NCBI RefSeq assembly: GCF_003336875.1
Contig: NZ_QGNJ01000006.1
Location: 1 to 64,000, forward strand
Length of the DNA: 64,000 bases
Reading direction: 5' to 3'
DNA from: Oleisolibacter albus
GTDB lineage: Bacteria > Pseudomonadota > Alphaproteobacteria > Azospirillales > Azospirillaceae
Made by a program: the position numbers and the translations under genes. Positions within the stretch are counted from its first letter, which is position 1. Every line of letters begins with the position of its first letter. This document shows, piece after piece, positions 46,778 to 51,946 of the stretch. The notes under the pieces are model-generated. The model worked only from the letters and a program-made list of their open reading frames with translations. It was not told where the DNA came from and ran no database searches.

Positions 46778-46844
46778 GTTGTCGGCCCTGTGTGGCCCGC
46801 CATCCTCCTCCCGGATCGCGGGCCTGCGCGTCCATGAGGAGACC

Positions 46845-47417
46845 ATGCTGGAGGCGGAGAGTGACGAAGCGCTGATGCTGGCGGTGCAGGATGGCAATGT
46901 CCAGGCCTACCGCCTGATCGTCCGCCGTTACCTCAAGCGCATCTATGCCGTGGCCCGCCGGATCCTGCCGCATGACGCCGATGCCGAGGATGTGGTGCAG
47001 GACACGTTCCTGCGGGTGTGGAGCCACCGGCACAACTGGTCGCCGGGGGCCGCCCGCTTCACCACCTGGCTGCACCGAATCGCCATCAACCGCTGCATCG
47101 ACTATCGGCGCCGTCCGCTGGAGGACCGGCTGGACGATGCGGCGGAGCCGGTGGACGAGCGTCCGCAGACCGACCAGTCCATTCATGACCGGCAGTTGCA
47201 CGCCGCCCTGGCCAAAGCGCGGCGGCGGCTGCCTACTAGCCAGCAGATAGCCCTTGCCCTATATTACAACGAGGGAATGACCGGTGTCGAAGTGGCTGCG
47301 GTCATGGGGCTGTCGCAGAGTGCGGCGGAAGCGCTGTTGAAGCGCGCCCGCCAGCAGCTTCGTGTCGTTTTCGCCCGATCGGCCATTCGAGCCCAGGATG
47401 CGTTTGATGATCGATGA
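46845..47417 (+). CDS. ECF-type RNA polymerase sigma factor
   Basis: A 190-aa sigma-70-family regulator. Region 2 is EALMLAVQDGNVQAYRLIVR through DAEDVVQDTFLRVWSHRHNW; region 4 is LPTSQQIALALYYNEGMTGV through LSQSAAEALLKRARQQLR. I favour the ATG at 46845 with AGGAG just upstream; another ATG at 46770 overlaps the fliS stop and is possible. It directly follows fliS, so it may tie envelope stress or surface signals to flagellar expression, though that is only inference. Confidence 0.85.
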   Translation: MLEAESDEALMLAVQDGNVQAYRLIVRRYLKRIYAVARRILPHDADAEDVVQDTFLRVWSHRHNWSPGAARFTTWLHRIAINRCIDYRRRPLEDRLDDAAEPVDERPQTDQSIHDRQLHAALAKARRRLPTSQQIALALYYNEGMTGVEVAAVMGLSQSAAEALLKRARQQLRVVFARSAIRAQDAFDDR

Positions 47418-47742
47418 TGGTCTGCACGTGGCATTCGAGGATCTCCTCTGCCAGTACGGGGCAGATCTGCGCGCATGGCCGAAGGACCGGCTGACGCCGG
47501 TCCTGGCCCTTCTCCGCAGCTCCCATGCCGCCCGCCAGCGGTTGCGCCTGATGCGCCGTATGGAGGCGATGCTGGAAACCGACATGGACGGGATCGAGCC
47601 GCCAGCCGGGCTGGAGGAACGGATCCTGTCCGGCATGCTGCGCCTGCGGGAACGGGAAACCGATCCGACCGGTCCTCCCGACCCTGATGGGGCTTTGGCC
47701 GGCCGCATGGGCGGCCATACCGCCGTCCGCTCCCGCATCTGA
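47407..47742 (+). CDS. Small partner of the ECF sigma factor (anti-sigma candidate)
   Basis: A 111-aa protein overlapping the sigma gene by 11 bases, which suggests coupled translation. It carries the motif LCQYGADLRAWPKDRLTPVL near residue 12, similar to the YGADxxxWP segment of many alphaproteobacterial proteins encoded next to ECF sigma factors. It lacks a membrane helix and the zinc-binding HxxxCxxC of ZAS anti-sigma proteins. An alternative ATG at 47398 exists. Confidence 0.6.
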   Translation: MIDDGLHVAFEDLLCQYGADLRAWPKDRLTPVLALLRSSHAARQRLRLMRRMEAMLETDMDGIEPPAGLEERILSGMLRLRERETDPTGPPDPDGALAGRMGGHTAVRSRI

Positions 47743-48268
47743 ATTTCCCCAGCCGCGCCGCCATCGCCGGATGTGAACGCATCCGTTTGAGGGAAATGTA
47801 TCCAAAGCTCCGCCGGCCAGCCCCGCGATGTCGCCCGCTGGACTGGTCTTCTTTTGCTCCGCGCCGCCCCCGATCCCGTCAAGGGCCGGCAGCCCGTCGC
47901 CCCCCAACGGGATCAGGCGGGCTGGCTGTCTGGTCCTTATACGGACCGGATCTTCCGCTCCTGTCGCAGGAAAATGTCGAGAGCGGGGTATAATCTGTCG
48001 GCGCTGACGGCTTGCGTCGCTGTGCGTCGCACGGCGCAACCTTAAGCTGATCTTTATTTCGATCATGCAACATGAATAATGTGGGACTCTGCGCTGGATC
48101 TGGATTCCACGCGGCAATATCGGAGCTATTCCAAGGAAACGCCGTCGAATTCATCGACAAAATCATTCTCCGGCGATATCATTCATAATCTATCTATTCT
48201 ATCGATGTGAGTGTGCGGATCACACGGGGGCCACCTGTCGCTGCACCCGCGCAGGGGATGGGGTCGCC
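47743..48268. other. 526-bp intergenic region before the HWE kinase
   Basis: No coding sequence is convincing. The right half is AT-rich (around 48050-48215). TATAAT occurs at 47989-47994 without a good -35 box at normal spacing. A promoter for the kinase is probably in the AT-rich part. Confidence 0.5.
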
Positions 48269-51200
48269 ATGACGCTGTCGCGCCGTCTGATGCTCCTGGT
48301 CCTGGCATCGCTGCTGCCGGCAGCTGTGGTGGAACTGCATAATGCTGCCAGTCTGCGGGCCGGCGGGCGCAGCCAGTTGGAGCAGCGGGCGCAGGGCGGC
48401 CTGATGCAGGTGGAGCAGAACCAGGCGCGGCTGGTGGAGGGGGTGCGGAGCATCCTGGCCACGCTGCGCCAGGCCCGGGCCGTACTGGAACCGGACGATG
48501 CCGCCTGTCAGGCTTTGATGGATCGGCTGCGCGGCGAGTATCCGGCGCATCTCGAGGTCTATGTCAGCGATCAGGACGGGCGGATTCGTTGTGCCACGGA
48601 CAGGCGGGCCTTGGGTGTCGGTGTTGCCGACCGTGCCGTGGTGCGGGCCGTTCGGGACGGGGCAAGCTTCACCGTGGGCGCCGCCATCGTCTCCCGGGCC
48701 ACGGGGCGGCCGGTCCTGCCATTCTCCTCCGCCACCGGAGCAGACGGGGTAGGGGGCGCCATCATCGCCACGGTGGATGTGGGCTGGCTGGCCGGGACCT
48801 TGACCCAGGGGCTGCTGGCAGCGGACATCACCATCCTGGTGGCGGACCGCGATGGCGCCGTTCTGGCGCGGGCGGCATCGGGCGGCATGGGGGCGGAAGG
48901 CGCGCTTCCCAGCGCCTATGCCTCCCTGTTCACGGCGACCGAAAGGGGGGTGCGTCCGGTCCGGACGGCAGAGGGGCGGTCGCTGCTGACCGCGTTCGCG
49001 CCGCCGGGACCGGACAGCCTCTTCGTGGCCGTGGGTATCGACCGTGACATGGCGTTGGGGTCGATCGACCGCGCCCTGGCCGAATTCGGGGCCGCCCTCA
49101 GCCTGTCACTGCTGGCGGCGGTTCTTGGGTCGCTCTGGCTCAGCCGCCGCTATGTCCAGCAGCCGGTGCAGCGCCTGGCTGATATCGCCCAGCGCTGGAG
49201 CACCGGCGATCTCTCCGTGCGGGCCGCCGTCGATACTGTGGATCTGGCCCCTCTGGTTCATGATCTCAACGGCATGGCCGAGGCCCTGGCGCAACAGCGC
49301 CATGATCTGCGCAACGCCCAGAGCCGTTACCGCGCCATCTTCGAAACCGCGGTCGACGCCATGGTGGTCATCGACGAGGCCGTCACGGTCGTTTCCTGCA
49401 ACCCGGCGGCTGAGAAGACCTTCGGCTATACGGCGACGGAGATGCTGGGCCGCAACGTCTCCATGCTGATGCCGGAGCGGGAACGGGTCCGGCATAACGG
49501 CTACCTGACCAGTTATTACCGGACCGGCGTGCCGAAGATCATCGGCATCGGGCGCGGCGTCGAGGGGCGCCGCCGCGACGGTTCGGTGTTTCCGCTCGAC
49601 CTGTCCATTGCGGAGTGGCGGGACACGGCGGGACGCCGCTTCTTCACCGGGATCATGCGCGACACCACGGCGCGCCGGCAGGCCGAAGCCGATCTGGAGG
49701 CGCGGGCGGCGCGTCTGCGGCTGCTGGCGGAACTGGCTGGCGATCTGCTGGGGACGGGTGATCCGGACAAGGCGCTGCGGCAGCTGATCCTGTCGGCCCC
49801 GCCCGGTCTGGGCCTGGACGTGGTCATCGTGCATGAGTTGGCGGAGGGCCTGCTACGCCTGAGCCATGCCTATGGGCTGGAAGGGCAGGCGGAGGACCTG
49901 GACCGGCTCGCCATCGATACGCCGCCCTTCGGCCTTGTGGCCGCGGGGGGGCACCCGGTGATCCTCGCCGCGTCGGGCGATCCCGCCGCCGCCGGCCGTG
50001 CGGCCTGCCGCGTCCTGGGCTTCCGTGCCTTCGCCGGCTTTCCCCTGATGGCGGCCGACGGGACCCTGCTGGCCGTGCTGTCCTTCGCCTCGTTCAGCCG
50101 CGACGGCTTCGCCCCGGCCGACCTGGATCTTCTGGCCACAGTGGCCCATGACGTGGCCGCCGTCCGCGACCGGCTGCGCGTGGCCCGTATCCTGGCGGAA
50201 AGCGAGGCCTTCGCCGCCAGCGTCATCGAGAACAGCCCCGACCGGATCGAGGTCCTGGACCTCGACGGCCGGCTGGTGAGCGTCAACAGCCACAGCCGTC
50301 GGGCCCTGGGGCTGATGGATGCGGACAGGTTGAGCGGCGTCAATTGGATCGGGGCATGGCCTGCGGAGTCACGGCCGGATATCGAAGGGGCTCTGGCCGC
50401 CGCCCGCGCCGGGGCCACCGGCCGCTTCGCTGCCACCGGGTCCGGGCCGGCGGAAAACCCGGTCAGCTGGGATGTGGCGGTCGCCCCCATCCCCGGACCC
50501 GACGGCAGGCCCCGGCTGCTGCTGGCCACGGCCCGCGACGTGACCGTGCGCATGACGCAGGAGCGCGACCTGCGCGCCCGCGAGGCCACCTTGTCCGCCG
50601 TGCTGGATGCCCTGCCGGTGGGGGTCATCATCGCCGATGCCCAGGGACGCATCCTCCGCGACAATGCCGCCAACCGCGCTATCTGGGGGGTGCCGCCGGA
50701 AACCAGGGACTGGTCTGGCTATGCCGACTGGGAAGCCTACTGGCCGGGAACGGGCAAGCGCATCCAGGCCCATGAATGGGCCATGGCGCGTGCGCTGCTG
50801 CGGGGCGAGGTGGTCCAGGACGAGCTGGTGGAATACCAGCCTTTCAGCGGCGGCCCGCGCCGGCTCTATCTCAACAATGCGGCGCCGGTGCGTGACGAGA
50901 CCGGCGCCATCGTCGGCGGCGTGGTGGCGGAACTGGACGTGACCGAGCGCTATGCCACCGAACAGGCGCTGCGCGAAGCCTCCGAACGGCTGGACCTGGC
51001 GCTGGAGGCCGGGGCCATCCTGGGCACCTGGATCTGGGACCTGCGGGCCGACCGCTTCACGGCGGACGAACGCTTCGCCCGTGTCTTCGATCTGGATGCC
51101 CGCGCCTGTCATGACGGCGTCGCCATCGCCGATGTGCTGCCGTCGGTGCATCCGGAGGATCTGCCGGGGCTGGTCCGCGCCATCGATGCCGTGGTCCGCC

Positions 51201-51946
51201 GCGGCGGCGCCTATGCCCATCAGTACCGGGTGCGCCAGCAGGGTGACGGCTACCGCTGGATCGAGGCCAACGGCCGGGTGGAGATGGACGCCGACGGGGT
51301 TCCCCTGCGCTTTCCCGGCGTTCTGCTGGACATTGCCGAGCGCAAACGCGCCGAGGAGAAGCAGCGTCTGCTGGCGCGCGAGGTGGACCACCGGGCCAAG
51401 AACGCCCTGGCCGTGGTCGCCACCGTGGTGCGAGCGACCCGGGCCGAGGATCAGGCGGCCTTTGTCGAAGCGGTGGAGGGCCGCATCTCCGCCCTGGCGC
51501 GGGCGCACCGGCTGCTGGCCAATGCCGGCTGGACCGGCGCCGATCTGGCCTCCCTGGTTGCCGATGAGCTGGACCCGTTCACCGGCGCCGACCGGGAGCG
51601 GACCCGGATCGAGGGACCGCCGGTGATGCTGGCGCCCGATGCCGTCCAGCCCATGGCCATGATCCTGCACGAACTGGCCACCAACGCCGCCAAATATGGC
51701 GCCCTGTCGCGGCCGACGGGCTGGCTGGTCCTGTCCTGGCGCCGCGATGACCGCCAGGGGCTGGATATACGCTGGCATGAGGAAGGGGGGCCGCCGCTGG
51801 ACGGACCGCCGACACGGCGCGGCTTCGGGTCGGAGATGCTGGCCGCCGCCGCCGGCCAGCTGGGGGGGCCGGCCCACTTCGTCTGGGACCCTGCCGGCCT
51901 GCGTTGCCTGTTGACCGTGGCGCGGGAAAATCTGGTCCTGGCCTGA
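48269..51946 (+). CDS. Membrane-bound multi-PAS HWE-family histidine kinase with FixL-like haem PAS
   Basis: A 1225-aa sensor kinase. Order: TM helix near 5-22; extracytoplasmic Cache-like domain to ~270; TM helix near 274-292; HAMP to ~345; PAS1 at ~350-470; GAF-like region ~480-640; PAS at ~643-765, ~770-890 and ~900-1025; HWE kinase core from ~1032. The phosphoacceptor is His1041 in REVDHRAKN; the N-box is HELATNAAKYGALS; the WxE motif is RWHEEGG. PAS1 is FixL-like, with GRNVSMLMPERERVRHNGYL and IIGIGRGVEGRRRDGSVFP. His409 and Arg429 are spaced as the haem-ligand His and the O2-contacting Arg of FixL. No response regulator adjoins it. Confidence 0.88.
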   Translation: MTLSRRLMLLVLASLLPAAVVELHNAASLRAGGRSQLEQRAQGGLMQVEQNQARLVEGVRSILATLRQARAVLEPDDAACQALMDRLRGEYPAHLEVYVSDQDGRIRCATDRRALGVGVADRAVVRAVRDGASFTVGAAIVSRATGRPVLPFSSATGADGVGGAIIATVDVGWLAGTLTQGLLAADITILVADRDGAVLARAASGGMGAEGALPSAYASLFTATERGVRPVRTAEGRSLLTAFAPPGPDSLFVAVGIDRDMALGSIDRALAEFGAALSLSLLAAVLGSLWLSRRYVQQPVQRLADIAQRWSTGDLSVRAAVDTVDLAPLVHDLNGMAEALAQQRHDLRNAQSRYRAIFETAVDAMVVIDEAVTVVSCNPAAEKTFGYTATEMLGRNVSMLMPERERVRHNGYLTSYYRTGVPKIIGIGRGVEGRRRDGSVFPLDLSIAEWRDTAGRRFFTGIMRDTTARRQAEADLEARAARLRLLAELAGDLLGTGDPDKALRQLILSAPPGLGLDVVIVHELAEGLLRLSHAYGLEGQAEDLDRLAIDTPPFGLVAAGGHPVILAASGDPAAAGRAACRVLGFRAFAGFPLMAADGTLLAVLSFASFSRDGFAPADLDLLATVAHDVAAVRDRLRVARILAESEAFAASVIENSPDRIEVLDLDGRLVSVNSHSRRALGLMDADRLSGVNWIGAWPAESRPDIEGALAAARAGATGRFAATGSGPAENPVSWDVAVAPIPGPDGRPRLLLATARDVTVRMTQERDLRAREATLSAVLDALPVGVIIADAQGRILRDNAANRAIWGVPPETRDWSGYADWEAYWPGTGKRIQAHEWAMARALLRGEVVQDELVEYQPFSGGPRRLYLNNAAPVRDETGAIVGGVVAELDVTERYATEQALREASERLDLALEAGAILGTWIWDLRADRFTADERFARVFDLDARACHDGVAIADVLPSVHPEDLPGLVRAIDAVVRRGGAYAHQYRVRQQGDGYRWIEANGRVEMDADGVPLRFPGVLLDIAERKRAEEKQRLLAREVDHRAKNALAVVATVVRATRAEDQAAFVEAVEGRISALARAHRLLANAGWTGADLASLVADELDPFTGADRERTRIEGPPVMLAPDAVQPMAMILHELATNAAKYGALSRPTGWLVLSWRRDDRQGLDIRWHEEGGPPLDGPPTRRGFGSEMLAAAAGQLGGPAHFVWDPAGLRCLLTVARENLVLA

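Follow-up and report, generated by a model that had tools for sequence, protein, structure and literature searches.

Introduction

Haem-based sensing by PAS domains of the FixL type has been studied mainly in histidine kinases with a HisKA core and in DosP. The roles of His200 as haem ligand and of Arg220 as oxygen contact are established in Bradyrhizobium FixL. HWE histidine kinases are marked by a W-x-E motif in their catalytic region. Here we analyse a sensor kinase gene of Oleisolibacter albus, located at positions 48269-51946 (forward strand) of the first 64,000 nucleotides of contig NZ_QGNJ01000006.1; this whole stretch is referred to as the window, and the encoded protein as the window kinase. 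The open reading frame (ORF) encodes 1225 amino acids from ATG to stop, and its product is a membrane-bound bacterial sensor kinase in which the PAS domain at residues 353-465 (49325-49663) is very probably a haem-based gas sensor like that of FixL. Judged by its sequence, the kinase core is a true HWE kinase. Regulation of a multi-sensor HWE kinase by a haem-binding PAS domain is, taken as a whole, the explanation that we favour, and we consider it fairly probable.

The window kinase resembles FixL of Bradyrhizobium and Sinorhizobium in PAS sequence, predicted fold, haem His, distal Arg and hydrophobic pocket, but FixL has a HisKA core whereas the window kinase has an HWE core, and it adds a double-Cache domain, a GAF domain and three more PAS domains. 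It was rejected as a true FixL, having an HWE rather than a HisKA core and scoring 191.7 bits, far under the 850-bit cut-off of the FixL equivalog NF041777. With the blue-light HWE kinases (5epv, 6ph4) it shares the HWE core and a PAS_3 domain directly before it (6ph4 aligns with residues 898-1194, at E = 3.8e-35 for the whole protein), but the input domain of those kinases is a LOV domain and not a FixL-type PAS. DosP and the other haem PAS proteins of cluster 3 of a PAS survey have the same kind of PAS domain by fold and helix-F His, as far as the available text of that survey goes (PMC10468136), but the output of DosP is a c-di-GMP phosphodiesterase rather than a kinase. No natural haem-PAS HWE kinase is described in the titles and abstract openings listed for the open-licence papers searched.

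Conservation of FixL haem pocket residues in the first PAS domain

The PAS domain at residues 353-465 scores over its Pfam cut-off and aligns to the Bradyrhizobium and Sinorhizobium FixL PAS domains gap-free from GRNVSMLMP (residues 394-402) through the FPLDLSI stretch. Because the alignment has no gap there, His409 (codon 49493-49495) and Arg429 (codon 49553-49555) fall on the columns of the FixL His (His200/His194) and of the distal Arg (Arg220 in Bradyrhizobium), and they are predicted to be the proximal haem ligand and the distal ligand-contact residue, respectively. The original prediction, made from the sequence alone, had placed these two residues 20 apart, as in FixL, and had pointed to GRRRDGSVFP and GRNVSMLMP as flanking FixL-like motifs. 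Both observations hold: His409 lies in RHNGYL (408-413), Arg429 in IIGIGR (424-429) and GRRRDGSVFP at 433-442. Homology accounts for the spacing of 20 residues, which should not be counted as a separate coincidence.

Searches of the PDB using phmmer matched the PAS domain alone to FixL structures 8js5 (E = 1.7e-31) and 1d06 (E = 2.1e-29), and the best match for the whole kinase was also FixL (2.4e-35 to 8js5). The structure prediction that had been suggested as a check gave a PAS model (43 sequences, pLDDT 87) whose 20 best PDB fold matches are all FixL haem structures. The model superimposes on seven Bradyrhizobium FixL entries (ranks 8-14) with a root-mean-square deviation (rmsd) of 1.3-1.4 Å over 116 columns, on 8js5 and 8js6 with 1.7-1.9 Å and on 1d06 with 3.0 Å. 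The haem PAS domains of DosP and FG214 follow at ranks 21-29. A LOV or flavin reading of the domain was rejected, as the first LOV structure appears at rank 30, with LOV matches at 25% identity.

Both His409 and Arg429 are kept in 40 of the 43 rows of the PAS alignment, and the pocket residues I424, I425, L445 and I447 in 33, 37, 38 and 23 rows, respectively; the rows were selected by similarity to the window PAS, so that these counts describe that subfamily only. One row, L076, has Glu in place of the His in a pairwise alignment. The sequence matches and the model together indicate that residues 353-465 are likely to bind haem, as the original prediction had proposed, and by analogy with FixL the kinase would be controlled by oxygen.

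Domain architecture of the window kinase

The domain order from the N-terminus is transmembrane helix, double Cache, transmembrane helix, HAMP, FixL-type PAS, GAF, three further PAS domains and HWE kinase. The two Kyte-Doolittle maxima of the protein lie at residues 273-291 and 3-21, and we place transmembrane helix 2 at residues 269-291 (49073-49141; 1.93, the highest window) and transmembrane helix 1 at residues 3-25 (48275-48343; 1.81), where the structural model has a continuous helix. Stretches within soluble domains at 773-791 (1.66) and 588-606 (1.55) score not far below these maxima. The region between the helices (residues ~26-268, 48344-49072) is assigned as an extracytoplasmic double-Cache domain from the alignment, a sub-threshold dCache_1 match (22.7 against 45 bits) and model fold matches. 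The model of the N-terminal 345 residues (11 sequences, pLDDT 85) shows a two-module Cache fold between two transmembrane helices, in agreement with the extracellular Cache-like domain of the original prediction. It matches the dCache sensor structures 3lif (6.8e-11) and 6ioq (3.8e-10); its top two structure matches, 9a65 and 9a69, come from integrative modelling rather than crystallography. Among relatives, dCache_1 is over its cut-off in L011, L012, L016, L038, L040, L042 and L049 and under it in L039, L041, L044, L053 and L055. Two Cache residues, Cys80 and Cys108, are invariant in all 11 aligned rows (ORF part 48269-49303), and could possibly form a disulfide or a metal or redox site.

HAMP, at residues 293-341 (49145-49291), is likewise sub-threshold (PF00672, 19.4 and 22.0 bits against a cut-off of 25); it is above the cut-off in relatives L011, L012, L016, L039, L040, L041 and L042. 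GAF_2 (PF13185, 38.1 against 28.6 bits) spans residues 498-631 (49760-50161), downstream of the FixL-type PAS domain, so that the original prediction erred in placing a GAF domain before it. Three more PAS domains and an HWE core had been predicted correctly. Pfam places PAS_4 at residues 654-761 (50228-50551, over the cut-off), a second PAS_4 at 779-895 (50603-50953) and PAS_3 at 931-1018 (51059-51322, over the cut-off). The HWE_HK phosphoacceptor and dimerisation region (PF07536, 80.9 against 22.8 bits) covers residues 1038-1117 (51380-51619) and contains His1041 in HRAKN. In the ATP-binding region (51620-51922), which was aligned with the HWE kinase structure 6ph4, there is an N-box (ELATNAAKYG) at 1135 and a W-x-E motif (WHE) at 1169.

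Distribution of FixL-type PAS domains and alternative readings

FixL-type PAS domains are common, contrary to the rarity implied by the original prediction. In the available text of the PAS survey, the His is present in over 9700 sequences (60%) of cluster 3, to which FixL and DosP belong; it is described as the primary determinant of haem binding, and the cluster is linked to histidine kinases and diguanylate cyclases (PMC10468136). In Azospirillaceae, 55 of 82 genomes match the PAS domain of L016 at E <= 1e-25; this query is a Cys-bearing variant that itself has neither the His nor the Arg. Both residues are present in 26 of the 30 PAS domains retrieved in this family search, the query being counted among the 30. 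The assignment to Azospirillaceae agrees with the occurrence, in genomes of this family, of PAS sequences identical to those of named Azospirillum loci (L013/L042 and L033/L048). In the O. albus genome the PAS profile (E <= 0.001) matches at 11 places, and only the window PAS has both residues.

The next best of these places (L105, G000:C23:53000-59500) encodes a Cache-PAS-FixL-like PAS-HisKA-receiver-Hpt hybrid in which the His is kept and Leu replaces the Arg; another receiver frame lies near it, at C23:57170. L016 (1252-4464 on G013:C18; L129 is the same place) encodes a HisKA hybrid with Cache, HAMP and PAS domains that belongs to the same sensor family; its FixL-type PAS domain (L016:2581-2973) has lost both the His and the Arg, and several Cys surround their positions. 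L144 (from genome G099) has Phe and Cys at the His and Arg sites, with further Cys nearby. Rare PAS domains of cluster 3 have a Cys motif that may hold an Fe-S cluster, according to the survey text available (PMC10468136), and the sequences of L016 and L144 may reflect a change from haem to Fe-S in the same sensor slot.

The following observations speak against the favoured explanation. The Arg that pairs with a haem propionate in FixL (Arg206/Arg200) is Ser415 in the window kinase, a difference from FixL. The remaining 40% of cluster 3 sequences are without the His in the survey text (PMC10468136). Some 570 residues and four further sensor domains separate the haem PAS domain from His1041, and both HAMP and dCache score under their Pfam cut-offs.

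Arg occupies the propionate-pairing position in just nine of the 43 PAS rows, the position varies widely, and this Arg is a feature of FixL itself that does not define cluster 3. Variants of Sinorhizobium FixL at R200 have normal haem spectra but autoxidise in air, according to the available portion of the report (PMC10765370); the Soret bands given there for Sinorhizobium FixL lie near 434 nm (deoxy), 418 nm (oxy) and 424 nm (CO). From these variants, the window kinase may be a haem protein that, unlike FixL, oxidises easily, as would suit a first PAS domain that binds haem but senses redox state, NO or CO instead of oxygen. FG214 also shows, in the part of its description available, that a haem PAS domain can work by another coordination. 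However, Arg429, the FixL residue for bound oxygen, is kept together with I424, I425, L445 and I447, and we regard a redox, NO or CO sensor as rather unlikely.

The PAS domain could alternatively have the FixL fold but bind no haem, or a different ligand, serving only for dimerisation and relay while the Cache domain, the GAF domain or both carry the signal. The long distance to the kinase would be consistent with this, as would the His-less part of the published cluster and the four family-search PAS domains without the His and Arg pair (the L016 query among them). Against it, both residues and the hydrophobic pocket are kept in the window kinase, while the other ten profile-matching PAS domains in the genome lack one or both residues, and this reading appears quite improbable to us.

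FixL-type PAS domains joined to HWE kinases in other genomes

Eleven other proteins join a FixL-type PAS domain with both the His and the Arg to an HWE core. They come from Skermanella stibiiresistens (two proteins), S. aerolata, Pseudoroseomonas rhizosphaerae, P. vastitatis, Siccirubricoccus soli, three metagenome-assembled genomes (MAGs) and two further genomes; the loci had been retrieved for their similarity to the window, a choice that enriches for such proteins. HWE_HK was above the Pfam cut-off in all ten relatives of one scan and, in a second scan of eight relatives, in L064; six of those eight (L038, L040, L042, L016, L046 and L055) are HisKA kinases. L054 (Microvirga) was rejected as an HWE member, as its HWE match passes (36.8 bits) but HisKA_2 scores higher (78.1 bits) and no W-x-E motif was found. 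The sensor type is common, and among the proteins retrieved the join to an HWE core is recurrent; the mildly new part is the mixed architecture of the window kinase.

The Skermanella-type hybrids (L039, L041, L011 and L012; Cache-HAMP-FixL-PAS-PAS-HWE) are similar to the window kinase in sensor arrangement, HWE core and the His and Arg pair, but they end in a receiver-like domain (two of the four pass the Pfam cut-off for it, the others falling just short), have no GAF match, and their HWE cores form a separate clade. Roseomonad kinases (L044, L049 and L053) also combine a Cache domain, a PAS domain with both residues and an HWE core, but the PAS domain directly precedes the HWE core and the sensor half is on a distant branch.

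Two further loci have unusual arrangements. L047 (3109-7386, from a Hyphomicrobiaceae MAG) is a CheB-CheR-PAS-FixL-type PAS-PAS-HWE fusion with both residues present. In L045 (6001-8833, from S. stibiiresistens) the Cache and FixL-PAS-HWE parts are in different reading frames, representing either two genes or a frameshift.

Relationships of the sensor and kinase halves

The best blastp matches of the two halves of the window kinase are different proteins. L038, from the Rhodospirillaceae MAG bin98 (L009 is an identical copy), has 50% identity over window residues 1-636 by blastp, and L010 has 44% identity over residues 635-1213. In the genome search the inner ends of the L038 and L010 matches are at residues 643 and 614, respectively, giving an apparent seam at residues 614-643 (50108-50197). 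L038 has a Cache-PAS-GAF-HisKA-HATPase-receiver architecture; it is like the window kinase in its Cache domain, FixL-type PAS with His and Arg, and GAF domain, but its HisKA-HATPase-receiver output differs from PAS-PAS-PAS-HWE. L010 is a PAS-PAS-HWE protein with a sub-threshold receiver.

In a tree of the sensor region (residues 1-480, 12 rows), the window kinase pairs with the HisKA hybrid L038 (89/92), and the two fall inside a starred group (95/99) with the four Skermanella-type HWE hybrids, while HisKA forms from Azospirillum fall outside this group. In a tree of HWE cores (41 rows), the window kinase groups with L014 and L015 (98/85), apart from both a Skermanella-type clade (100/98) and a Roseomonad clade (100/99). 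L014 and L015 are not among the FixL-type PAS matches (the L014 locus covers 975 residues of a 1092-residue frame). The HWE core of L010 does not group with that of the window kinase, so L010 matches one half without being a parent. The window kinase may be a domain-shuffled chimera, in which a Cache-HAMP-haem-PAS-GAF half was joined to a PAS-PAS-PAS-HWE half within residues 614-643.

More broadly, the Cache-HAMP-haem PAS half, with or without GAF, could be a portable oxygen cassette in Azospirillaceae and Acetobacteraceae that was joined independently to HisKA hybrids, HWE hybrids and receiver-less HWE kinases. The window kinase would be one such separate join, in which four other sensor domains, stacked in between, would pass a FixL-type gas signal on to an HWE core. 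We offer this only tentatively. Counted over the labelled rows only, the FixL-PAS/HWE combination needs a single change on the HWE tree; the case for separate joins comes from rows without a label that lie between the clades, where the PAS domain may alternatively have been lost.

Some results count against a chimera or against a recent join. In sliding alignments L010 persists back to residue ~481 at 25-47% identity and L038 on to residue ~720 at 32-38%, and the seam is blurred because each aligns weakly past the other. The fork joining L038 and the window kinase is unstarred (89/92). Among the matches listed, nine of ten same-genus genomes show only kinase-half matches. In the tenth, G004, a Cache piece (48% identity over residues 45-272) extends to the penultimate base of contig C310 (10464 bases), and an HWE piece (60% identity over residues 1039-1222) begins at base 23 of contig C269. 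Both pieces rank with the nearest relatives of the window kinase, and the assembly may have split a single orthologue into these two parts. Any join would then date back at least to the divergence of these two species. When only residues 1-295 are used, the tree ceases to pair the window kinase with L038, and the window kinase, G004 and L038 form an open fork. In a repeat of the HWE tree, the G004 core joins the window kinase, L014 and L015 (98/90) and the Skermanella-type clade has 87/99.

The full architecture might have been inherited within the genus, through an old join or none, with relatives having lost or changed parts. The two G004 pieces at contig edges agree with this, as does the limited sampling (a whole-protein search of 59 relatives and one pattern-based scan). 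On the other hand, no single relative retrieved matches the window kinase end to end like the two half-matches, and the sensor and kinase trees disagree. We consider inheritance of the whole architecture possible but somewhat doubtful.

Genomic context and proposed mechanism

No response regulator gene is adjacent to the kinase gene, as originally noted: no receiver was found in the window, and there is none among the nine neighbouring ORFs. A purpose-built receiver profile matched 0 of 547 window frames and found 3 of 3 control receivers. The genome has at least 91 receiver matches at E <= 0.001, at least 87 of them over the cut-off; none of the matches listed falls within the window (C41:1-64000), and the nearest on this contig is at C41:87164. 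No FixJ-type partner is nearby, which is another difference from FixL.

Upstream of the kinase gene are genes for flagellin, FliD, FliS and an ECF sigma factor and a 126-aa ORF; downstream are genes for a glyoxalase and a GST (both on the minus strand), a TetR protein and an amidase. The ECF sigma factor gene and the overlapping 126-aa ORF, which has no Pfam match and is possibly an anti-sigma factor, occupy 46836-47742. A promoter scan gave one weak sigma-70-like site (48154-48182, with 0.4 expected), which we did not use as evidence.

The genome has 13 places with HWE_HK over the cut-off. It also has one CcoN of a cbb3 oxidase (740 bits), because of which low-oxygen respiration is likely. 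A role in nitrogen fixation was rejected, as no nifH match in the genome reaches the cut-off of 394 bits (the highest score is 35.6 bits), which is again a difference from FixL. A general-stress output through PhyR and NepR was also rejected, as neither is over its cut-off (highest scores: NepR, 25.3 bits with a cut-off of 25.7; PhyR sigma-like, 25.4 bits with a cut-off of 27). In translation, the NepR near-miss resembles a protein of the anti-sigma type.

In the mechanism that we propose, the first cytoplasmic PAS domain very probably carries one b-type haem ligated by His409, and Arg429 would lie on the side where the gas binds. Binding of oxygen (possibly NO or CO), or a change in haem redox state, would shift the PAS domain as in FixL. 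This shift would be combined along the helical stack with the signal of the extracytoplasmic double-Cache domain above and those of the GAF and three PAS domains below, and would alter autophosphorylation of His1041 in the HWE core. A receiver from another part of the genome would then accept the phosphate. The direction of control is not predictable, because the kinase class differs from that of FixL and because of the ~570 intervening residues.

Implications for signal relay in histidine kinases

The window kinase itself would be a modest gain, as one more multi-sensor kinase in which a sensor half and a kinase half have possibly been joined. If haem PAS domains do control HWE kinases, the effect of the same input on two classes of kinase could be compared. 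Signal relay may differ between these classes, as suggested in the available text of a published study (PMC11164954). The compact Roseomonad forms, with the PAS domain directly before the HWE core, would simplify such a comparison of HisKA and HWE relay.

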